Below are positions 2,067-12,372 of a DNA stretch of 15,790 bases, in pieces. The position numbers were made by a program, and so were the translations under genes. Each line of letters begins with the position of its first letter. Within the stretch, counting starts at the first letter, position 1. Source of the stretch: an uncultured Anaerolineales bacterium (lineage in GTDB: Bacteria; Chloroflexota; Anaerolineae; Anaerolineales; UBA11657); contig CAJWIA010000011.1 of NCBI GenBank assembly GCA_913040765.1, positions 1 through 15,790 of the forward strand. Direction: 5' to 3'. The notes beneath the pieces are model-generated. The model made no database searches. It saw nothing but the letters and a program-made list of their open reading frames with translations, and was not told the origin of the DNA.

Positions 2067-2591
2067 TCACCCTGACACTTTCGCAGTCTCAAGCAACCTA
2101 ACTATCTCCCGACAGAAGGCAGGAAGGTCACTGGGGATCCGCGAGGTAACCAGGTGGCCATCCACCACCACTTCGCTGTCTTCATACAAACCGCCGGCAT
2201 TCACGACATCTGTCTTCACCGCTTTGAAGCTCGTGCAGTGCTTGCCACGCAGTACATCAGCCTCGATCAAAACCTGAGGTCCATGACAAATGGCCGCTAC
2301 TACCTTGCCCTGGTCACACATATCCCGGGTTAGTCGCACCATACCCGCCTTAGTGCGCATAATGTCGGGCGCTCCGCCACCGGGGACAATAAGGCCAATG
2401 TAGTTTTTAGCTTGCGCTTCGTCAGCGGCTAAGTCCGATTTAAGCGGGTAACCTTGCTTGCTGAGGTATACGACCCCGGATTCGGAACCAACCACATCTA
2501 CCTCATACCCAGCTTCCAGTAGTCGATAATAGGGCACAAGCGCTTCGGCTTCTTGATAACCTTTCTCAATCAGCATTGCAACTTTCGACAT
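2067..2591 (-). CDS. DJ-1/PfpI family protein (class I glutamine amidotransferase fold)
   Basis: A 174-residue cytosolic protein of the DJ-1/PfpI superfamily, whose members include PfpI-type proteases, glyoxalase III/deglycase-like enzymes and stress proteins. The start is the ATG at 2591, chosen because AGGAGGT (2598-2604 on the minus strand) sits six bases upstream; a longer frame to 2615 is possible but would place the ribosome-binding site inside the gene. The nucleophile elbow is AAICHGPQVLIEA (99-111) with Cys102 and His103. Glu14 in GYQEAEALVPYYRL is the usual acidic partner, and LIVPGGGAPD (67-76) is the typical glycine turn. The C-terminal NAGG (131-134) and VTSRIPSDLPAF (148-159) match PfpI-type members. 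Length is normal. It is a single gene with its own terminator. The substrate is unknown. Confidence 0.92.
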   Translation of the reverse strand: MSKVAMLIEKGYQEAEALVPYYRLLEAGYEVDVVGSESGVVYLSKQGYPLKSDLAADEAQAKNYIGLIVPGGGAPDIMRTKAGMVRLTRDMCDQGKVVAAICHGPQVLIEADVLRGKHCTSFKAVKTDVVNAGGLYEDSEVVVDGHLVTSRIPSDLPAFCREIVRLLETAKVSG

Positions 2592-2597
2592 GTTCTG

Positions 2598-2638
2598 ACC
2601 TCCTATGGCGATCATAATCGCCTTTACGCCGGATTATA
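2598..2638 (-). promoter_or_regulatory. DJ-1 gene -10 and strong Shine-Dalgarno
   Basis: On the minus strand TATAAT (2638-2633) lies about 30 bases before AGGAGGT (2604-2598), which is six bases from the ATG. No clear -35 is seen. This gene therefore uses ordinary leadered initiation, in contrast to the leaderless pentapeptide genes nearby. Confidence 0.5.
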
Positions 2639-2787
2639 GGTAACTGATGTAAGTCATGTTGCCCGGCGGGAATCCACACAACTTCCAAGTCACTAGCCCA
2701 TAACTGTGTAGCTTTTACCGAAAGCATTCTATGACAGTTAGGTTCTTATCGCAACTATCTCCAAAACAAACTTCAACGAATTTGCGC

Positions 2788-2817
2788 TTGTCCACCCCCT
2801 TGATGTTGGTTTATAGT
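2788..2817 (+). promoter_or_regulatory. Promoter of the lipoprotein pentapeptide gene
   Basis: TTGTCC (2788-2793), 18 bases, then TATAGT (2812-2817). The -35 context CTTGTCCACC is nearly identical, at the same distance, to that of the pentapeptide gene at 5748 (CTTGTCGACC). The start would be near 2824, leaving a leader of about 20 bases that contains AGGTG a few bases before the GTG start. Of the pentapeptide genes this is the one with a leader. Confidence 0.6.
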
Positions 2818-2843
2818 ATAGGAAATATAAAAATAGGTGCGAT

Positions 2844-3248
2844 GTGAAAAAGGTATTGACTTTAGTGGTTTTTATGGCAGCTGTATTGATATCCGCATGT
2901 AGCCCAGACGTAATCACTATCAACGGATGTGAAATTGGCCCAAAAACTAGATGTATGAACGTTGTCTTGAGTAATGAAGACTTGAGCGAAGCTGATCTAA
3001 GTCATTCTACGCTATATCAGTCTGATCTGAGTGGCACTAACCTTAGTGGGGCCAATCTCAACTACGCTGACCTCCAAGAAGCCAATCTCAGTGAAGCTAA
3101 CCTGCAAGAGGCTCGCCTGTACGGCGCTGACTTGCGTGAGGCCAACTTAGACGGAACTGACCTGCGCGGAGCCAAGTACAACAAATACACACAGTTCCCT
3201 GAAGGATTCGACCAGGAGGCAGCAGGAATGGAACTAATTGAGGCATAA
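2844..3248 (+). CDS. Pentapeptide-repeat lipoprotein
   Basis: A 134-residue protein. Residues 1-19 are a lipoprotein signal peptide: MKK, a hydrophobic core, then the lipobox ISAC with Cys19 as the lipidation site. It should therefore be anchored on the outer face of the membrane. From about residue 40 to 113 it is made of A(D/N)LxX pentapeptides (for example SEADL, SGTNL, SGANL, QEANL, REANL), which in known structures form a right-handed quadrilateral beta-helix. The C-terminus has a cap, GAKYNKYTQFPEGF followed by AAGM, shared with the two other pentapeptide proteins in this window. The start is GTG at 2844; the ATG two bases earlier runs straight into TGA. Function is unknown. Export is unusual for small pentapeptide proteins, whose best-known members (Qnr, MfpA) are cytosolic gyrase binders. 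Confidence 0.85.
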   Translation: MKKVLTLVVFMAAVLISACSPDVITINGCEIGPKTRCMNVVLSNEDLSEADLSHSTLYQSDLSGTNLSGANLNYADLQEANLSEANLQEARLYGADLREANLDGTDLRGAKYNKYTQFPEGFDQEAAGMELIEA

Positions 3249-3266
3249 TTATTCGCGAAGTCATAC

Positions 3267-3296
3267 CTGGCATAAATCAAGGCCAGATGCGTTTTT
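3267..3296 (+). terminator. Weak terminator candidate after the lipoprotein gene
   Basis: CTGGC (3267-3271) can pair with GCCAG (3282-3286), with a T6 run about five bases further on. The stem is only five base pairs and it overlaps the end of the convergent kinase gene, so this is tentative. Confidence 0.25.
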
Positions 3297-4230
3297 TATG
3301 TAGGTCGAGTTTGTCTACAAACTCATATAATTGATCAACCCTATATTCAGGAAGCGTACTCACTGCACTACAAATCATAGCACCCATTCTACATGCAAAT
3401 TCGCATGCTTTGTCCAAAGATTCGCCCATTGCCAATTTATACAGCAGCCCCGCTGAAAAAGCATCTCCAGCTCCGACAGGATCAACTAAATCTACTGCAA
3501 AAGCAGTAGTACGACCTGTTTCATGACCGTCAAAATAATATGCTCCATTAGCTGCATCTGTAATCACAATCGAATCTATAAACAATTTGGAAGCTATAGT
3601 AGACATGAATTCATCAACCGAAGAAGCTCCAATACGAAGAAGCTCATTAGTGAGCACTGCTTCCTCCCAATTCATTTTTGCTATTGTGCATTTTTGCAAC
3701 GAATTAAATATAATCTCAGTAGAATAAAATGGCTCTCTAAGGTTCAAGTCCAAAAAAATAGTTTCGAATGCGCACTCTTCTATAATTTTAGCTAACGCAC
3801 TCCTCGATACGTCATTCCTTTGCTCTACAGTACCGAAGAAGAGTGTATTATACGCACCATTTTTTATGTAATTTATATCCGAATTACTTGTTTCAATATA
3901 GTCGAAGGACATGCCACTTTCAAAGCCTGAGAAGGTTGGATTTTTATCACTATCCAAACTTACTTTCACAAGGCAGGTAGGCTGTGGTACTGTTTTCACA
4001 AAATCCATGGCAAGTCCAAGCCCATTTAATGTTTTTAATGTCATAGAACCCAGATTATCATCGCCTACTGCAGTAAATATAGTCGATTGATAACCCAATC
4101 CATTCAGATGAACTACCACATTTAATGTGGTACCTCCTATATTCTGAGCACTTGGAGCCTGCGGGCCACTGGAGATGTCGTCCCAAACTACACATCCAAA
4201 TCCTAACGCTTTTGTTTTTGGTGTTTCCAT
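3277..4230 (-). CDS. PfkB-family carbohydrate kinase (fructokinase/ribokinase type)
   Basis: A 317-residue cytosolic sugar kinase of the ribokinase/PfkB superfamily, expected to transfer phosphate from ATP to a sugar or nucleoside hydroxyl. Visible signatures are the glycine signature IGGTTLNVVVHLNGLG (31-46), which packs against the sugar, DLNLREPFY (161-169), which resembles the fructokinase DxNxRxPF motif, and MNWEEAVLT (186-194). The C-terminal PfkB signature is DPVGAGDAFSAG (250-261), with catalytic base Asp256 and the anion hole GAGD. Length is typical. The ATG at 4230 is preceded by AGGA with a five-base gap. The aminopeptidase gene lies 85 bases upstream on the same strand, but a promoter-like TATAGT and an inverted repeat lie between them. 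It converges on the lipoprotein gene. The sugar cannot be named from sequence. Confidence 0.92.
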   Translation of the reverse strand: METPKTKALGFGCVVWDDISSGPQAPSAQNIGGTTLNVVVHLNGLGYQSTIFTAVGDDNLGSMTLKTLNGLGLAMDFVKTVPQPTCLVKVSLDSDKNPTFSGFESGMSFDYIETSNSDINYIKNGAYNTLFFGTVEQRNDVSRSALAKIIEECAFETIFLDLNLREPFYSTEIIFNSLQKCTIAKMNWEEAVLTNELLRIGASSVDEFMSTIASKLFIDSIVITDAANGAYYFDGHETGRTTAFAVDLVDPVGAGDAFSAGLLYKLAMGESLDKACEFACRMGAMICSAVSTLPEYRVDQLYEFVDKLDLHKKRIWP

Positions 4231-5697: not shown

Positions 5698-5711
5698 CTA
5701 CACAGATAGAC

Positions 5712-5741
5712 TTGTCGACCTTTTAGCGGTCGGTGTATAGT
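5712..5741 (+). promoter_or_regulatory. Leaderless promoter of the second pentapeptide gene
   Basis: TTGTCG (5712-5717), an 18-base spacer, then TATAGT (5736-5741) preceded by GGTG. Exactly six bases (ATAGCC) separate the -10 from ATG at 5748, so +1 should be the A of the start codon. The 23 bases 5723-5745 match the promoter of the third pentapeptide gene (7816-7838) at all but two positions, which implies shared regulation or a common origin. Confidence 0.75.
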
Positions 5742-5747
5742 ATAGCC

Positions 5748-6134
5748 ATGACAGATTTCACCCGCGATGAAGTAATAGAAACAGTCCATAAGCTAATCAG
5801 AGCTGATTTACAGGGCATTGACCTTAGTGAGGCTGACCTCAGCCGAGCTGATCTATATAAGGCCAACCTGACTGGAGCCAACCTAAGTAGGGCTAATTTG
5901 CACTCAACAACTCTGACTTGGGCTCAGCTATACAGGGCTGACCTACAAGGTGCTAACCTGGGTCACGCTGACCTACGTTGGGCTGATTTAAGACAGGCTA
6001 ACCTAAGTGGCGCTAGCTTAGCTACTGCTAATCTGCGCTGGGCTTACTTAAAAGGTGCAAAATATGACCAATACACCAAGCTTCCCGACAGTTTCGATCC
6101 TCTTGCAGCCTGGATGGTGTTATCGGTAGAATAG
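5748..6134 (+). CDS. Pentapeptide-repeat protein, leaderless mRNA
   Basis: 128 residues from the ATG at 5748. An in-frame GTG at 5733 lies inside the promoter -10 and is rejected as the start. After a short N-terminal helix ([17 protein letters not shown]) the protein is almost wholly pentapeptides ([40 protein letters not shown]), predicting a four-sided beta-helix with no export signal. The C-terminal cap [16 protein letters not shown] plus AAWM matches the caps of the proteins at 2844 and 7841. The stop TAG is followed at once by TGA, and GAGG between this gene and the kinase at 6147 suggests an operon. Known cytosolic relatives include DNA mimics that bind gyrase, but no function can be assigned here. 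Confidence 0.88.
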
Positions 6135-6146
6135 TGAGGCTATCCA

Positions 6147-7121
6147 ATGCGTGATTTCTCTTTTACTGGCATCCCGACTGTGGACTATTATGACTTGTTT
6201 AAAGAAACAAAGCCTCGTATCCTATTGGGGAGTACGGCCGTCTATGCTGCTGCTGCACTAGCGAAACAGGGCGCAAATGTATTGTTTAGTGGGCCGGTCG
6301 GCGCCGATCTAAATCCAAATTTACTAACTCCACTACAAGATTCAGGTGTAATATTTGACCTACATGAAATGGATGGTCGCCAGGGCTCACTCGAAATGGC
6401 CTTTACAGCCAACGGCCAAGTAACTTCCCTAACAATAGATTCTGGCATAGGAACGGAGTTTCAAGCAGAACACCTTAGCGACGACTTTTGGAAAGCGCGC
6501 GTTTGCTGGATCGGAACTTGCCCCCACGATTACACAGTCGCGGTTGCCACAAAAGGACGAAGGCACGGATGCGAAGTTGTGCTCTCTCCTCAAGGTCAGT
6601 TCCGCAATAAGCTGAACGATGCCACCCAACTTGCTGAGCAATTACACTTTTTAAACTGCAATACAGCCGAAATGACAACTTTCGGTAACGGTCAATTAGA
6701 AAATGGTTTGGCTGTACTCCGTGAGATTAATCCCGAACTCCAAGTCCTGCTCACCAGGGGGAGAAATGGAGCCTGGTTTATAGGCCGTGATGAAGTATTC
6801 AGCATCCCAGCAATACCGCAAGTTGAGTCAGAATTCCTCGTTGGAGCTGGGGACGCATTTGCGGCAACTTTTCATTATCACCGCATACAGGGGCAACCAA
6901 TTCCTACATGTCTACAACGGGCCACCGCTGCGGCCGTACTCAAAATACGTGGTTTCTCCTACACTCGCATGGGAACAAACTCTGAGTTGTTGTTAAAAGT
7001 GGAAAAACTTGCACCGCAACTACCCGTTGAACATACTGCCTGGAATAGTAAAACTGCCATGCGCTGGTTTGAGGCGGAAGACCCCGACTTGACCCAGGAC
7101 GGGAGAATTACACTCAAATAA
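6147..7121 (+). CDS. Divergent PfkB-family kinase
   Basis: A 324-residue ribokinase/PfkB-superfamily protein only 12 bases after the pentapeptide gene, with GAGG (6136-6139) seven bases before its ATG, so the two are probably cotranscribed. Support comes from LLGSTAVYAAAALAKQGANV (26-45) and SGPVGADL (48-55), a degenerate N-terminal sugar-binding signature, and from LVGAGDAFAATF (231-242) with catalytic Asp236 and the GAGD anion hole. It departs from the family pattern: the first glycine signature reads GS instead of GG, and FLV replaces the usual D-T-T/D-P-V before GAGD. The lid region is hard to place. ATP binding and kinase activity are likely but the substrate may be unusual. It is only distantly similar to the kinase at 3277. 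It ends one base from the convergent LOG-like gene. Confidence 0.8.
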   Translation: MRDFSFTGIPTVDYYDLFKETKPRILLGSTAVYAAAALAKQGANVLFSGPVGADLNPNLLTPLQDSGVIFDLHEMDGRQGSLEMAFTANGQVTSLTIDSGIGTEFQAEHLSDDFWKARVCWIGTCPHDYTVAVATKGRRHGCEVVLSPQGQFRNKLNDATQLAEQLHFLNCNTAEMTTFGNGQLENGLAVLREINPELQVLLTRGRNGAWFIGRDEVFSIPAIPQVESEFLVGAGDAFAATFHYHRIQGQPIPTCLQRATAAAVLKIRGFSYTRMGTNSELLLKVEKLAPQLPVEHTAWNSKTAMRWFEAEDPDLTQDGRITLK

Positions 7122-7122
7122 T

Positions 7123-7704
7123 CTATTGGTCTCTTACATGTTCAACGGTCAGGCCAAGATCAGGAGCTGGCACAGTACCAATACGGGCAACAGCCTCGCG
7201 CACAGCCTCATCGGTTGTTTGCACAAATCCAATTTGAACTGTTCGTCTGTCGTCAAGATAACCAGGTATTGGCAAAAAAGCCTCTAGCCGGTCAGCCATG
7301 CCTCCAGAACCCTGCAAAACAGTCAGTGGCTTACCATGTGAATAAGCTTGGGTGACTTCATTAAGCGTGCCGCTTGAGCCTCGGACCATAATCACACTAT
7401 CACAGGCGCGAATAGTTGTAATGTTTCGCAACGCATACCCTATCCCGGTTGGGATTGCCACATCTATATAGGCATTTGCACCATGTCTATCCCCTTCGGG
7501 CAAAATGCCGACTACCAACCCACCTGCTTGCTTAGCCCCTCGGCTAGCCGCCTCCATAATACCCGTACCACCTCCAGTCACAGTGATACACCCGGCCACT
7601 GCGATGAGGCGTCCTACCTCTTCTGCCATCTTGAATATTTCATCCGGCACATTCGCGGCCGAACCGATCACACCGATATATTTCTGCTCTACTGGATGCA
7701 CCAT
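7123..7704 (-). CDS. LOG/TIGR00725-type Rossmann protein
   Basis: 193 residues with a nucleotide-binding Rossmann fold of the LOG / SLOG (formerly lysine decarboxylase-like) superfamily, TIGR00725-like. Visible elements are YIGVIGSAANVP (9-20) as the first strand and loop, TVTGGGTGIMEAASRGAKQA (41-60), GGLVVGILPEGDR (61-73) and GIGYALRN (87-94). RGSSGTLNEV (108-117) stands where true LOG cytokinin phosphoribohydrolases have PGGxGTxxE; the first residues are altered but GT and Glu116 remain. Enzymatic activity on a nucleoside monophosphate or a role in nucleotide sensing is therefore possible, unproven. The ATG at 7704 is chosen because GAGGA lies eight bases upstream; a TTG five codons earlier overlaps that site. 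It is divergent from the pentapeptide gene at 7841 and converges tightly with the kinase. Confidence 0.85.
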   Translation of the reverse strand: MVHPVEQKYIGVIGSAANVPDEIFKMAEEVGRLIAVAGCITVTGGGTGIMEAASRGAKQAGGLVVGILPEGDRHGANAYIDVAIPTGIGYALRNITTIRACDSVIMVRGSSGTLNEVTQAYSHGKPLTVLQGSGGMADRLEAFLPIPGYLDDRRTVQIGFVQTTDEAVREAVARIGTVPAPDLGLTVEHVRDQ

Positions 7705-7748
7705 TGGTAATTTCCTCAAAGTAGTCTAAAAACAGCTTAAGTTACTAT

Positions 7749-7754
7749 ATTATA
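7749..7754 (-). promoter_or_regulatory. -10 element of the LOG-type gene
   Basis: TATAAT on the minus strand, immediately followed by an overlapping TATAGT, lies about 45 bases before the ATG at 7704. The leader ends in GAGGA. No clear -35 is seen. It shares the 136-base divergent spacer with the pentapeptide-gene promoter. Confidence 0.4.
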
Positions 7755-7804
7755 GGTCTGCATCAAGTATATCAGGTATTAACACACCAATCGCATCAGA
7801 TCAC

Positions 7805-7834
7805 TTTCCAACTAATTAGCAGTCGGTGTATAGT
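7805..7834 (+). promoter_or_regulatory. Leaderless promoter of the third pentapeptide gene
   Basis: TATAGT (7829-7834) preceded by CGGTG, then exactly six bases (ACAGAT) and ATG at 7841. The -35 at the 18-base distance is a weaker TTTCCA (7805-7810). The spacer and -10 are nearly identical to those at 5723-5745. Confidence 0.7.
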
Positions 7835-7840
7835 ACAGAT

Positions 7841-8209
7841 ATGCGAGACGACGTAATAGCAAAGATTGCTGCAGGCGAAAGCTTAGAACAAGCTGACCTA
7901 GTAGGTATCGACCTCCGTGGTGTTGATCTTCATGCCGCTGATTTCAGCAAGGCTAACCTAAGTCAGGCTAAACTAAATGGAGCCAACCTGCAGGCAGCTA
8001 ATCTTAGTCAGGCTAACCTACGTGCGGCACATTTGAGTCAGGCTAACCTGGCTGATGCCAACCTTAGTAGCGCTAACCTGATCTGGACCAACCTTCGTGG
8101 CGCTAACCTAAGCGGTGCTGACTTACATGAAGCTATCTACGACGATACCACGATATTTCCTGAGCACTTCGAACCAGAAGAAGCAGGAATGGTGCGATCA
8201 ATCGAGTGA
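7841..8209 (+). CDS. Pentapeptide-repeat protein, leaderless mRNA
   Basis: 122 residues from ATG 7841; the upstream in-frame GTG at 7826 is part of the promoter. A short head (MRDDVIAKIAAGES) is followed by about 17 pentapeptides (EQADL, SKANL, SQAKL, NGANL, SQANL twice, ADANL, SSANL, RGANL, SGADL), then the cap EAIYDDTTIFPEHF with EEAGM. The DNA itself shows the repeat as recurring GCTAACCTNAGT-type 15-base units. No signal peptide, so cytosolic. It is closest to the protein at 5748 in promoter and head, and shares the cap with both paralogues. After its TGA stop the same frame stays open another 52 codons (to 8365), possibly by chance. Function unknown; gyrase-type DNA mimicry is only one possibility for this fold. 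Confidence 0.88.
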   Translation: MRDDVIAKIAAGESLEQADLVGIDLRGVDLHAADFSKANLSQAKLNGANLQAANLSQANLRAAHLSQANLADANLSSANLIWTNLRGANLSGADLHEAIYDDTTIFPEHFEPEEAGMVRSIE

Positions 8210-8464: not shown

Positions 8465-8498
8465 CAAGGCTCGCGCGCGCAAGTGCGTGCCTTGCGAG
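8465..8498. repeat. GC-rich overlapping inverted repeats at the -35 of the propeller gene
   Basis: CAAGGC (8465-8470) pairs with GCCTTG (8489-8494), and CTCGC (8470-8474) with GCGAG (8494-8498); CGCAAG/CTTGCG offers a third, competing pairing. The block is strikingly GC-rich in AT-rich surroundings and its right arm contains the -35 hexamer TTGCGA of the following promoter. This is a natural place for a repressor or activator. Confidence 0.45.
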
Positions 8499-8521
8499 CT
8501 AATTGAGAATGGGTGTATGAT
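8492..8521 (+). promoter_or_regulatory. Promoter of the propeller surface-protein gene
   Basis: TTGCGA (8492-8497), 18 bases, then TATGAT (8516-8521) preceded by GGGTG: the same architecture as the other promoters with a -10 variant. Transcription would begin near 8528, giving a leader of about 29 bases before ATG 8557. No Shine-Dalgarno site is evident in that leader. Confidence 0.55.
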
Positions 8522-8556
8522 TACTCGTTTGATTATTAGAGTAAGCCATTGTATAT

Positions 8557-10653
8557 ATGCGCTATTTTCTTAGTAGTACCCTAATATTTGCCGCATTCGC
8601 CCTATTCCTGTACTCAGCAATCAGAGTATTTGCCGAAACCCCTTCCAACATCTCAGACGCCGGAAGCGTCACAATTCGTGATATAGGTCCAAGATACAGC
8701 GACACATTCACTATTGGTGCTAAAACATTTCTGATCGCTACCAGCAAAGGTGATGGTGGATTGGGCAATGAGGGTATATCGACTTACGACATTAGTGACA
8801 TCGACGATATCACATTTGTGGATCAGGTAAATGACACTTGCGGTATCTGCGGTTATGACCAGGGCTACGACTTCATTAGCAATCCCGCGGCCATTGAAGC
8901 TTTTACGATCGGGTCTGATACCTACGCAGTCCACATTGGCCAGGAAGGCATTCAGCTGATCGCGATAGATGCTGATGGAGATATGACTAGCAAAGGTGGC
9001 GTAGCTGATTCTGGTGATTACATAGCACTGGTGGGTTATGGTGGGAGACCTTCTGATCTCTCAACATTTGTAATAGGTTCTAACACATATGTCATTATCA
9101 CTGGCGGATATGGAAGTAATAAGGTCCAAATCATTGACTTGACTGATGTTGGTAGCGGCAATGAGGAAGCACCATCGATCACTGCTAAGGCCATAATAGA
9201 ACACGATGCAACTTTCACTGAACTTGCCGTTCCCAGTGGTGTTGATACCTTCAGCATTGGTTCGAACACCTACGCAATAGTTACCGGCCATGATGATAAT
9301 GGTGTTCAATTACTTGATATAAGTGATGTTGATAATATTGCCGCAAGGGGCATAGCAGAGGACGGAGCAACATTCACCACACTTGATGGCCCCATGGGCG
9401 TTGACACGTTCTCCATAGGCGCAAGCACATATGCAATAGTTACAGCTAACGATGATGATGGGGTGCAAATCCTTGATCTAAGCGATGTTGCAAACAGCAA
9501 CGTCAGTGCCAAGGGCGTAGCGGTGGATGGTGAAACTTTCACTGAACTAGAGGGCGCAGAGGATGTATCAACCTTCACGATCGGTACTTTTACATACGCA
9601 ATGGTAGCATCCTTCGAAGACGACGGTGTCCAGATCCTTGATATCAGCGATGTAGACAACATTGCGGCCAAAGATGCCGAAACGCATGGTGTGAACGGAT
9701 TTGAACTTTCTGAGGCTATAGATACAGATATAGTTACCATTGATAATATTCTGTATGGAGTAATCACATCGGGGTATCGAAGCGCTCGTGCGCAGTTCAT
9801 AAAACTCAACGATGACATAACCTCGCCGACCGTCGCAATAACATCTTCCTCCGGTTCTTCGGGCTCTTCGACTGGCTCGACCACATTGAGCTTTACTGCC
9901 ACGTTCAGTGAGTCCGTCAGCAATTTTGTGGTCGGAGATATTACTGTTACCGGCTCCGCTAACGGCGGTTCTCCGGCAGCCAGCAACTTTGCCGGATCGG
10001 GAACGACCTATACATTCGATGTGGTTAAAGGTTCATCTTCCGGGACCGTTTCAGTAACGATCGCAGCCGGAGCAGCTACCGATGCGGTTGGAAATGCCAA
10101 CACTGTCTCCAACACCTACATTCTGACTATCATCGACGCGACTAACACACCTACCAACACACCTACCAACACACCTATCAATACAGCGACAGTTACCCCT
10201 ACCCTGACCACTTTATCTGAAGACTATACTGAACCTCCTCCTACCGCTACCATTACAAGTACTGCCACCATCACTACCAGTCCGACTCTCACCCGGACTC
10301 CAAGTATCACGCCAACCTATACAGTCACTTTCACCCCAATTTACACACCGACATTCACACCAACATTCACGCCGACATTCACTCCAACAGCAACAGAAGA
10401 GGATGAGCCCGAAAGCGACAATGAAGAAGATGAACCTACCGCACCAAATAAGACACCCCAACCACCCACAGCATCATCTATCCCTACCAACTCACCTGTA
10501 GCTCCTACTGCGACCTCTTTATTGCCACAACCACTTGTCTTCGTGGGCACGCCTACCTCAACCTCAGTATCACCTGACCCGACAACAACCCCGCTGCCAC
10601 CCGCGCCGAGCGATCCCATTAACACCGCACTTAGTAATATCAAGTTCAGCTAG
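8557..10653 (+). CDS. Secreted seven-blade propeller / Ig-like / Thr-Pro-linker protein
   Basis: 698 residues up to a TAG. Residues 1-26 are a signal peptide (hydrophobic core, cleavage likely after VFA). Residues about 50-418 hold seven repeats of the pattern T/F-xIGxxTYAIVT ... GVQILDISD, starting near 50, 115, 169, 231, 284, 339 and 391; this resembles LVIVD-type beta-propeller repeats and predicts one seven-bladed propeller. Residues about 423-527 are a bacterial Ig-like domain (TATFSESVSNFVVGDITVTG, then GTVSVTIAAGAATDAVGN). Residues 528-690 are a Thr/Pro-rich linker with an acidic patch (EEDEPESDNEEDE). Such proteins sit on the cell surface and may bind sugars, proteins or matrix. The frame continues beyond the TAG through another stop to a membrane region ending at 11187, so the annotated end may not be the true end. 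Confidence 0.85.
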   Translation: MRYFLSSTLIFAAFALFLYSAIRVFAETPSNISDAGSVTIRDIGPRYSDTFTIGAKTFLIATSKGDGGLGNEGISTYDISDIDDITFVDQVNDTCGICGYDQGYDFISNPAAIEAFTIGSDTYAVHIGQEGIQLIAIDADGDMTSKGGVADSGDYIALVGYGGRPSDLSTFVIGSNTYVIITGGYGSNKVQIIDLTDVGSGNEEAPSITAKAIIEHDATFTELAVPSGVDTFSIGSNTYAIVTGHDDNGVQLLDISDVDNIAARGIAEDGATFTTLDGPMGVDTFSIGASTYAIVTANDDDGVQILDLSDVANSNVSAKGVAVDGETFTELEGAEDVSTFTIGTFTYAMVASFEDDGVQILDISDVDNIAAKDAETHGVNGFELSEAIDTDIVTIDNILYGVITSGYRSARAQFIKLNDDITSPTVAITSSSGSSGSSTGSTTLSFTATFSESVSNFVVGDITVTGSANGGSPAASNFAGSGTTYTFDVVKGSSSGTVSVTIAAGAATDAVGNANTVSNTYILTIIDATNTPTNTPTNTPINTATVTPTLTTLSEDYTEPPPTATITSTATITTSPTLTRTPSITPTYTVTFTPIYTPTFTPTFTPTFTPTATEEDEPESDNEEDEPTAPNKTPQPPTASSIPTNSPVAPTATSLLPQPLVFVGTPTSTSVSPDPTTTPLPPAPSDPINTALSNIKFS
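10147..10182 (+). repeat. 12-base tandem repeat in the Thr/Pro linker, three units
   Basis: Three consecutive units of ACACCTACCAAC or close to it encode TPTN-TPTN-TPIN. The first two are identical. Whole-codon units mean that copy-number change would lengthen or shorten the stalk without breaking the frame. Confidence 0.75.
10330..10389 (+). repeat. 12-base tandem repeat in the Thr/Pro linker, five units
   Basis: Five units of the form TTCACNCCNACA encode (F/Y)TP(T/I) repeats. The third codon positions differ between units, which points to selection on the peptide rather than very recent duplication. Confidence 0.75.
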
Positions 10654-10878
10654 AATTTGCTAGAGAATGCCGTACGCGAACCTTTTGACGGCGTACTTAC
10701 TGCACTCAGGCTCTTTACCAAATCTAACCGCCAGATAGATCGCACCTTTAGTACATCCAATAATATCGATCAACTAAGTGTGATCACCTGGGACAGTCCG
10801 GCCTGGCCTCTGCTTACAGGAGCACCTACACCAGTGCCTCAAACCGAACTACCCGCTCCAACCCAACCTAGTCTCTGA
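10654..10878 (+). pseudogene. In-frame continuation of the propeller gene between two stops
   Basis: This is the same frame as the propeller ORF, directly after its TAG, open for 74 codons to a TGA at 10876. The encoded segment (NLLENAVREPFDGVL... then a Pro/Thr-rich stretch with PTPVPQTELPAPTQPSL) keeps the amino-acid style of the preceding linker, so it looks like coding sequence rather than chance. It has no good start codon of its own (only a TTG at 10657) and no Shine-Dalgarno site. Either the gene has been split by nonsense mutations, or the stops are read through, or a sequencing or assembly error is present. I class it as a broken segment because readthrough cannot be shown from sequence. 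Confidence 0.5.
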
Positions 10879-10902
10879 CTGGCTATAATTCTCATACTGC
10901 CA

Positions 10903-11187
10903 ATGCTGCTAGCAATCAACTTTGCCCGTTTCCTACTTAAGCGTGGCATTACCCAAGCCTGGCTACGCTACGTGCTGGCACAACTACCTTTCATTGGAAC
11001 CACTCTGATATTACTTGTTATCTACCTGACCACGAACCCAGATTTTCTTCCAGCCATCACCATTTTGACTATCATTGTCTTACTATTTGTGCTCTTAGTC
11101 GAAGAAGTAATAATGCTTTTTTACGTTATAAAGCAGCGCCAAACCGAAATCATTCAAGCAGACACATCGCAGAGCGTTCGACAGTAA
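10903..11187 (+). CDS. Small three-helix membrane protein, or detached C-terminus of the propeller protein
   Basis: 94 residues from ATG 10903, in the same frame as the propeller gene. It holds a membrane segment MLLAINFARFLL, a second around LPFIGTTLILLVIYLTT, a third long one around AITILTIIVLLFVLLVEEVIMLFYV, and a charged tail (KQRQTEIIQ). The frame is open upstream of the ATG back to the TGA at 10876, and the codons there encode LAIILILP, which complete the first helix to a normal length. That favours an original single polypeptide whose anchor this was. A TATAAT (10884-10889) just upstream could now drive it separately with a seven-base leader. No Shine-Dalgarno site is seen. Confidence 0.55.
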   Translation: MLLAINFARFLLKRGITQAWLRYVLAQLPFIGTTLILLVIYLTTNPDFLPAITILTIIVLLFVLLVEEVIMLFYVIKQRQTEIIQADTSQSVRQ

Positions 11188-11237
11188 ATGCTGTAATACA
11201 TAAGCACCTATTCCAGTCCAAGTTGAAATACTTTTGC

Positions 11238-11267
11238 TTGCAGTCCCATAACTAGTGGGTGTATAGT
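11238..11267 (+). promoter_or_regulatory. Promoter of the unknown operon, leaderless register
   Basis: TTGCAG (11238-11243), 18 bases, then TATAGT (11262-11267) preceded by GGGTG. Seven bases after the -10 comes ATG at 11275, itself preceded by an in-frame GTG, so +1 should fall at the G before the ATG or on its A. Confidence 0.65.
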
Positions 11268-11274
11268 TATCGTG

Positions 11275-11397
11275 ATGATTGAGCAATCTGAATCTACTCG
11301 CATTAAAACACTGTATCTATGTCATCCACCAACTTCTACACAAGGAAGACAATTACTGCATGTTTGCAACCAACAATATACATCGCATTTACAGTAA
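11275..11397 (+). CDS. Putative 40-residue leader ORF
   Basis: From the ATG placed at the predicted transcription start, a 40-codon frame runs to TAA at 11395. The peptide begins MIEQSESTRIKTLYLC and has no recognisable domain. Its stop codon overlaps the best ribosome-binding site (TAAGGG, 11395-11400) of the next gene, whose ATG is at 11408. It could be a leader peptide that controls access to that site, or a non-functional ORF created by the leaderless start. The alternative is that the downstream gene begins at a TTG (11279) or at ATG 11359 in another frame. Confidence 0.35.
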   Translation: MIEQSESTRIKTLYLCHPPTSTQGRQLLHVCNQQYTSHLQ

Positions 11398-11407
11398 GGG
11401 CACGCCT

Positions 11408-11755
11408 ATGAACAAGATAAATTACTCTGAAATATCGTCCCCAATGGAAGGAATATCAAAGCTATCTTTACAGCAAATCACTAGCTGCATTAACAACTAT
11501 CTAGAAATGCGGCTTGACACATTAGTAACTGGGTATACGGATGGGTCAGATCATTGTGAATGGGAAGTAAAAGAAAATGATGTCACTGGCAGAATTTGGG
11601 TAACACTCGATGCAAACGACAGAACGATGAAGAATATTGGGTATGGTCTGAGAGCGGGTGTAAAACAACAAGACAATACCGTCCAATTGACTGCAATATA
11701 CATCGGTTGCATACATGCTCTCATTGAACTGTCCAACAACGAAGAAACAGACTAA
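11408..11755 (+). CDS. Unknown protein, first gene of a two-gene operon
   Basis: 115 residues from ATG 11408, chosen for the TAAGGG seven bases upstream; the frame is open back to 11279 without a better site. I do not recognise a family. It shows an N-terminal helix (GISKLSLQQITSCINNYLEMRL), then a beta-rich core (HCEWEVKENDVTGRIWVTLDAN), a glycine turn (IGYGLRAG) and a C-terminal helix (YIGCIHALIELSNN). There is no signal peptide or membrane segment. The order helix, W-x-V strand, turn, strand, helix recalls the first half of the next protein, hinting at distant relation. It overlaps the next gene as TAATG, so the two are translationally coupled and probably work together. Confidence 0.65.
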   Translation: MNKINYSEISSPMEGISKLSLQQITSCINNYLEMRLDTLVTGYTDGSDHCEWEVKENDVTGRIWVTLDANDRTMKNIGYGLRAGVKQQDNTVQLTAIYIGCIHALIELSNNEETD

Positions 11756-12372
11756 TGGTTACTAAATCAAATAAGGGTAACAGTAAAGCATACGCTGGCT
11801 GGAGTACGCTAAACAAAAAAGACGCGCTCCTGTCGGTAAGAGATGGTCTGAGACGTTACAATTTAGACAATTCACTCCTAAGTCTAAACTCGCGTAGATT
11901 CAATCTTGAAGATGGAGATACGCAATGGAGAATACGTTCCAATGGTAAGCCACTTTGCAATATTGTTATCAGAGCAAACAGAAAAGGAGGCGTGAAACTA
12001 GCTTATGAATTACCCGAGCAAGTCACAAAAGAAATACGCCAATCAATTGAACATATTGCAAAGCAGTTGCATGACCATCTAAAAATATGTGTAGATGTAG
12101 ACAACAATATTGGCACTCATTGGGAGATACCAGGAGTACCTCACAAAGTAAAGAAAAGAATTGAGTGGAGTAAGGCTTGGGACGAAATCAAAGAATACCG
12201 TCGCAGCTGCAAACACTCAGGATACAAACCCAAGCTAGCCGATATAATAGACTTTTTTATATATGCCGACAAAGACTCCCCTCTTTTTAGCGAGAGTACT
12301 CTCCAAAAGCTAATCCAAGCTGGAGAAGAAGGTAAGTTAGATAACATCAAATCGTACCGCACGTATAGGTAA
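11755..12372 (+). CDS. Unknown protein coupled to the gene before it
   Basis: 205 residues; the ATG at 11755 overlaps the TAA of the upstream gene. No family is recognised. The N-terminal 110 residues contain a helix (LNKKDALLSVRDGLRRYNL), a strand pattern (DTQWRIRSNGKPLCNIVIRA), GVKLAYELPEQ and a long helix (TKEIRQSIEHIAKQLHDHL). The C-terminal third is basic and helical (KVKKRIEWSKAWDEIKEYRR, then PKLADIIDFFIYAD and STLQKLIQAGEEGKL) and could be a nucleic-acid- or partner-binding module, though no helix-turn-helix is convincing. Cytosolic by composition. No terminator is seen after it. Confidence 0.65.
   Translation: MVTKSNKGNSKAYAGWSTLNKKDALLSVRDGLRRYNLDNSLLSLNSRRFNLEDGDTQWRIRSNGKPLCNIVIRANRKGGVKLAYELPEQVTKEIRQSIEHIAKQLHDHLKICVDVDNNIGTHWEIPGVPHKVKKRIEWSKAWDEIKEYRRSCKHSGYKPKLADIIDFFIYADKDSPLFSESTLQKLIQAGEEGKLDNIKSYRTYR

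Follow-up and report, generated by a model that had tools for sequence, protein, structure and literature searches.

On a stretch of 15,790 nucleotides from an uncultured Anaerolineales bacterium (contig C11 of genome G000, hereafter the window), one promoter-like sequence recurs immediately ahead of start codons. Does it represent the preferred promoter of a leaderless gene class in this lineage, as a preliminary description had proposed, or something of another kind? Our analysis revealed that the sites are copies of a repeat module of approximately 40 nt, CTTGCYGACCCRCTNGNAGYGGGTGTATAGT-N6-ATG, whose reading frame corresponds to the C-terminal end of a XerC-like tyrosine recombinase, and we consider that the module is probably a portable leaderless promoter associated with this recombinase. 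The repeat itself, in which the end of a recombinase gene seemingly acts as a portable gene start, appears more interesting than the leaderless class. The assembly of G000 comprises 1.6 Mb in 259 contigs and is 77% complete. The nearest named relatives are UBA3001 and UBA3499 (Anaerolineales bacteria, Chloroflexota), whose proteins show 90 and 88% identity to the aminopeptidase of the window.

Promoter-like sites of the window

The arrangement TATAGT-N6-ATG was present at positions 5736-5750 and 7829-7843 as described; these two occurrences compare with 0.22 expected, and 2 of 200 dinucleotide shuffles reached two. At 11262-11277 the hexamer is followed by seven bases and ATG, again as claimed. 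All three sites are preceded by (C/G)GGTG, and GGTGTATAGT was found three times vs. 0.03 expected (0/200 shuffles), in a window that contains 19 TATAGT hexamers on both strands. The statement that a -35 element beginning with TTG lies 18 bases ahead of the hexamer held for TATAGT at 2788, 5712 and 11238 (three TTG-N21-TATAGT, 0.19 expected, 0/200 shuffles); at 8492 and at 439 on the minus strand, the hexamers are TATGAT and TATAAT. At the 7829 site the -35 position reads TTTCCA, not TTG, and the hexamer at 2812 has GGTT directly 5' of it. The minus-strand region 380-460 (TTGGTA-18-TATAAT-9-ATG) has the look of an ordinary promoter with an 18-nt spacer and is unrelated to the module.

The likeness between the sites extends over 30-45 nt, spacer included, and the genes behind three of them encode pentapeptide-repeat proteins. 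The copy at 5711-5750 (plus strand, as are all copies given here; CTTGTCG...GGTGTATAGT-N6-ATG) has TTG at 5712 in the -35-like position, the -10-like hexamer at 5736-5741 and ATG at 5748-5750, which opens a pentapeptide-repeat gene (5748-6134, plus strand; MTDFTRDE...). The copy at 7804-7843 (CTTTCCAAC...GGTGTATAGT-N6-ATG), conserved in G000, G001 and G004, leads into a second such gene starting at ATG 7841 (7841-8209, plus strand; MRDDVIAKIA...). The copy at 11237-11277, with seven bases to ATG, has an orthologous copy in G004 and opens a 40-aa frame in which no Pfam match was found at E 0.01. A divergent copy at 2787-2817 (GGTTTATAGT; orthologues read GGTGTATGAT) lies ahead of a pentapeptide-repeat lipoprotein gene (2844-3248, plus strand), and because the start there is GTG at 2844, a short leader would result. 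Finally, a degenerate copy at 8491-8521 (TATGAT; orthologues GGTGTATATT and AGTGTATATT) falls below the threshold of the sequence model described below, and its hexamer stands about 40 bases ahead of the open reading frame (ORF) start at 8557.

The mechanical ORFs begin at GTG 5733 and GTG 7826, which had been taken for false starts. Judged from the sequence, the true start is likely the ATG, not the GTG within the -10 region. First, the G004 orthologue of the 5748 gene has a 1-nt insertion between the GTG and TATAGT. Second, two of the 21 copies in which ATG follows at the leaderless distance have a stop in the GTG frame. Third, 4 of 120 database homologues among the matches listed (151 found) begin upstream, inside the module. 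The Shine-Dalgarno-like sites described ahead of 2591, 5605, 7704 and 6147 are also visible.

The module ends a tyrosine recombinase gene

Copies of the module were hand-picked from matches to patterns and to a position weight matrix (PWM) built from 10 copies, including one of the window's; 37 sites entered the flank profile and 40 the alignment. Read in frame, the module corresponds to the C-terminal residues of a XerC-like tyrosine recombinase (LADPLGAGV*, ...EQAMLADPLGAGV), with the stop codon inside TATAGT. The frame ending at this TAG is open in 31 of the 37 sites, with ADPL in 10 and DPL in 15. Upstream of several copies it continues into a tyrosine recombinase C-terminus with the motifs LLGHS and TTEMYLHCS, and several copies stand behind recombinase genes that are broken or have internal deletions. 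An 88-aa piece of the recombinase matched Pfam PF00589 weakly, below the cut-off (E 0.009); a search with this piece returned eight matches in five of ten genomes, and all eight run into a module site. In a large protein set we found 43 metagenomic relatives of the catalytic part, with LADPL in 34; 27 end in LADPLxxGV, 17 of these exactly in LADPLGAGV. Frameshifted relatives continue through TATAGT into the next gene, as P0093 does into a pentapeptide protein. The whole recombinase gene is present in G003 in two copies, both broken. In G005 and G007, five copies are internally deleted genes in which part of the recombinase leader and start is fused to its end, three of the five apparently with the same deletion. 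In addition, sequence from upstream of the L136:4674 module recurs in G005 as separate repeats (L136:2466-2578, L137:35-111 and L137:4535-4607).

The protein P0064 (278 aa, partial) resembles XerC, XerD and XerA and scores under every curated cut-off; for this partial protein the values for the XerC/XerD families were 137.4 bits vs. a cut-off of 335 for TIGR02224 and 122.8 vs. 330 for TIGR02225. An integron integrase was rejected, with TIGR02249 scores of 71.8 (P0064), 68.5 (P0061) and 71.8 (P0059) bits vs. a cut-off of 265, all three proteins being partial. A phage origin was also rejected: 152 phage records matched, all below 60% identity, and at most 37% among the five matches listed. One pattern scan of viral contigs gave no relative.

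Genes behind the module

In 21 of the 40 aligned copies, ATG follows the first base of TATAGT at a distance of exactly 12 nt; in 16 of the 21 it opens a frame of 40 aa or longer, and by sequence these frames fall into six kinds. Eight are pentapeptide genes, orthologues counted, and three encode HNH proteins (PF14279, PF01844); a lipoprotein and proteins beginning MINLNDK and MSDRTEPE are among the others. Because five copies carry ATG at +12 with only a short frame behind it, the ATG may belong to the module. Pairwise comparison of the flanks of 48 copies, some of them orthologues, revealed many pairs that are common only from about -13 to +39, with no shared flank. A near-identical promoter-like sequence was thus found ahead of unrelated genes with non-homologous flanks.

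The pentapeptide genes raise another explanation, namely that pentapeptide-repeat genes were duplicated along with the sequence ahead of them and thereby multiplied an ordinary leaderless promoter, whose overlap with the recombinase would be incidental. Their share of eight among the 16 frames speaks for it, as does the region 5710-5774, with the promoter and start of the 5748 gene, which matches contig C178 with 86% identity over 65 bp (blastn). However, the same 30-40 nt also precede the HNH, lipoprotein, MINLNDK and MSDRTEPE genes, many pairs of copies have no common flank as noted, and recombinase tails also stand ahead of non-pentapeptide genes (L137:1365, L164 and L139). We therefore consider this explanation unlikely.

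Distribution and orientation of the module

A sequence model was built from the 40 copies and run on 151 genomes of the order at E<=1e-4, with stricter filters under which weak matches were lost. It gave 48 matches in seven genomes, all from two genera of one family: 8 in G000, 5 in G001, 3 in G002, 7 in G003, 7 in G004, 13 in G005 and 5 in G007. The module was found in all five genomes of genus g1 and both genomes of g2, but by this model in none of the three genomes of g3, the third genus of the family, and in none of the 141 other genomes of the order. The matches include 39 of the 40 aligned copies; nine of the 48 lie outside the alignment, and those on G000:C68, G003:C117 (two), G005:C98, G005:C128, G007:C49 and G007:C149 were not inspected. 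When ten genomes were scanned with a 32-nt pattern that tolerated three mismatches at most, 14 copies were detected, all in the five genomes of the window's genus; the other five genomes, from different genera, and the backwards search gave none. A looser pattern gave more copies, with exact matches that included the second genus (G005 and G007) and with control matches in G003 (4) and G002 (1). An additional scan of G000 returned 26 matches vs. 22 backwards.

Model matches were co-oriented on all ten contigs with two or more of them (26 matches; G000:C11 and G004:C35 are orthologous). On the module strand, GC skew was negative in 20 of 26 contigs, several of them orthologous, and modules thus tend to point against the G-rich strand. 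Replication-strand bias was rejected as the sole cause of co-orientation and may account for part of it.

The 18-nt spacer is filled by a dyad, ACC-N11-GGT, which is centred there. It might be bound by a MerR-like or other dimeric regulator, in which case the copies would form a regulon, and the outer three positions, which form standard pairs in 38, 35 and 34 of the 40 copies, fit such a binding site. We judge a regulon to be quite improbable, since the left half is gone in the orthologues of the 5712 copy, the dyad also lies inside the coding end of the recombinase, and the module was detected in 0 of 3 genomes of the third genus of the family. A hairpin RNA was rejected as well: the 7-bp inverted repeat is 73.6% paired, a value that 102 of 500 shuffles reach, and a switch between A-U (11) and G-C (11) occurs at a single pair only.

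Is this the leaderless promoter of the lineage?

To evaluate the wider claim, 41 contig stretches of G000 were sampled (the larger contigs C1 to C41, 556 kb), with genes called by a simple script (431 non-edge genes). Of 422 genes, 18 have a -10-like hexamer at -12 relative to their first ATG, vs. a background of 4.74 +/- 1.89 per position, with nearby positions reaching 10 or 11; for fifth ATGs, used as a control, the count at -12 was 4 of 314. The excess over background suggests a leaderless-like class of roughly 3%. The class that had been called sizeable thus exists in a modest form, and the 5748 and 7841 genes have the leaderless layout. A four-letter Shine-Dalgarno-like motif lies within -18 to -4 in 129 of the 422 genes.

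A preference for TATAGT and the 18-base spacer was not supported. TATAGT accounts for only 3 of the 18 hexamers at -12, and two of these three are in the window. Intergenic TATAAT outnumbers TATAGT (135 vs. 89), while inside genes the counts are 299 vs. 403. Among intergenic TATAGT hexamers outside the window, 1 of 81 has TTG at a spacing of 18, and the count is highest at 23 (8); for intergenic TATAAT the peak is at 17 (11/128). In the genome-wide search, TGTATAGT-N3..12-ATG occurred 17 times in the assembly vs. 11 in the backwards control, and the apparently five occurrences with a six-base gap to ATG all lie within copies of one repeat. Only four PWM matches above 14 bits were found in the 556 kb, all in the window, and none in the reversed control. 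Because the sample consists of the larger contigs, the copies on C55, C68, C87 and C178, four of the eight in G000, lie outside it. The preliminary description is sound locally, for the two genes and the false GTG starts, but it generalised from copies of one repeat.

It is consequently highly improbable that TATAGT with 18-nt spacing is the general leaderless promoter of the lineage. The peak at -12 is in its favour; the commoner TATAAT with 17-nt spacing, the confinement of the strong PWM matches to the window, and the spacing counts in the sampled third of the assembly speak against a genome-wide preference. The modest leaderless class of G000 is ordinary, given the published figures for Chloroflexi, in which leaderless genes were found in 4 of 12 genomes, 4.7% on average, according to the available passages of Zheng et al. 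2011 (PMC3160421). As far as those passages go, the start codon of TA-led leaderless genes is preceded at about 10-12 nt by a -10-like signal, and such a hexamer at about -12 was also found ahead of the window genes 5748 and 7841. However, the signal there belongs to individual genes, whereas here one long sequence is repeated.

Proposed function and spread of the module

On the reading that we favour, a recombinase-associated portable leaderless promoter, the module would be a promoter of the sigma-70 type, with transcription beginning on the ATG or right beside it, and any gene positioned behind it would be expressed from a leaderless mRNA. Less firmly, the module may have travelled with a recombinase element, and it is perhaps the site that this enzyme recombines. 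Copies whose recombinase sequence is broken, internally deleted or unrecognisable are followed by accessory genes, namely those for pentapeptide proteins, an HNH protein, lipoproteins and small proteins of unknown function.

Comparison of orthologues is informative here. In the 7805 copy, 4 of 40 core columns are variable among G000, G001 and G004 vs. 24 of 76 upstream. In the orthologues of the 5712 copy (G001 and G004), the left half is lost, while GGTG, TATAGT, the spacing and ATG are kept: GGTGTATAGTATAG-N2-ATG is retained in G001, and G004 has the same with one inserted base. Orthologues of the 2788 copy read TATGAT, and those of the 8492 copy read TATATT for the window's TATGAT; in both, TA...T is preserved, as expected for a -10 element.

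Several observations weigh against this reading. We infer promoter activity and the leaderless start from sequence. The near-invariance of GGTGTATAGT is partly ascertainment, because copies were found with patterns containing it, and the conservation of recombinase-bearing copies may reflect coding. For the 11238 copy, G000 and G004 differ in 7 of 41 core columns vs. 16 of 81 upstream, which is no clear difference. ATG at +12 is missing in 19 of the 40 copies, and L134:10820, which makes up one of the six frame kinds, is perhaps not a gene. ADPL is found in none of the four window copies; the 88-aa recombinase piece has no match in G000, the window's own genome, where the only trace of the enzyme seen is a short remnant ahead of the C178 copy. 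The inverted repeat shows no covariation beyond shuffles in the 40 copies, and a weaker copy found by matrix only, L138:7217, is opposite in orientation to the others on its contig. Moreover, the single readable indel between orthologous contigs breaks outside the module, in microhomology, and no pair of empty and filled loci was found in G006 to G009, which gave no or short matches and little synteny.

The indel itself concerns window 8540-11345, which is absent from G001:C71; the junction has AAGACAA microhomology and is found some 45 nt beyond the degenerate copy of the module. Excision between two copies was rejected as the cause of this 2.8-kb difference because of that distance.

A bolder possibility is a new integron-like capture system, in which a XerC-like recombinase would have, in the last codons of its gene, its own recombination site, a leaderless promoter and a start codon. 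The layout recombinase (or remnant)-site-gene-site-gene, observed in a single orientation on G005:C105, G003:C114 and G000:C178, fits this idea. We regard it as tentative and rather doubtful. If it were true, insertion behind any copy, at whatever place in the array, would suffice for a gene's immediate expression.

Comparison with known systems

In integrons, a tyrosine recombinase is accompanied by repeated sites and co-oriented small accessory genes, an arrangement that the sites and genes described here resemble. However, the module precedes each gene and is promoter-like, and the integrase score is 71.8 vs. 265; no attC-type folded site was found, the inverted repeat being imperfect and its pairing and covariation within the range of shuffles. 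In the dif/pdif modules of Acinetobacter plasmids, Xer-type sites of about 30 bp surround shuffled small accessory gene modules, which are bounded by oppositely oriented sites. The sites here are similar in length and company, but they are promoter-like and co-oriented on the ten contigs with several model matches, L138:7217 (PWM only) being the exception to the absence of oppositely oriented sites. Insertion sequences or MITEs (miniature inverted-repeat transposable elements) with outward promoters drive a neighbouring gene from the element end, as the module would, and internally deleted copies exist here too; the enzyme here, however, is a tyrosine recombinase. Putative mobile promoters, in which one sequence is repeated ahead of unrelated genes in one genome, have reportedly been described by Matus-Garcia and colleagues in 2012 under the title 'Promoter propagation in prokaryotes'. 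The module shares this feature, yet it is also the 3' terminus of a recombinase gene and in many copies includes a start codon at a fixed leaderless distance. No published description of the module was found among titles, beginnings of abstracts and passages of the literature.

If the portable-promoter reading is true, a single short sequence would combine the end of a gene, a promoter and a start codon, and might be a recombination site as well. Accessory genes of uncultured Anaerolineales would obtain ready-made expression, and newly placed genes would be expressible without a host leader. Start-site errors would also be systematic, with gene predictions extending into the module and adding false residues, as in the four homologues mentioned above.

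Other features of the window

The gene at 8557-11187 looks broken: stops at about 10651 and 10876 split a frame that is a single one of 998 aa in G004:C35. The PfkB-like gene (3277-4230) is without a match on G001:C71 and G004:C35. It lies in a plastic region (2087-4230), in which the order of a DJ-1-like gene and the pentapeptide lipoprotein gene is swapped on both of these contigs. Finally, a protein with a GWSTLN motif, for which no Pfam match was found at E 0.01 in the window, belongs to a family that recurs beside modules in two genera (window 11755-12372, L137:1838-2446 and L140:3068-3733).

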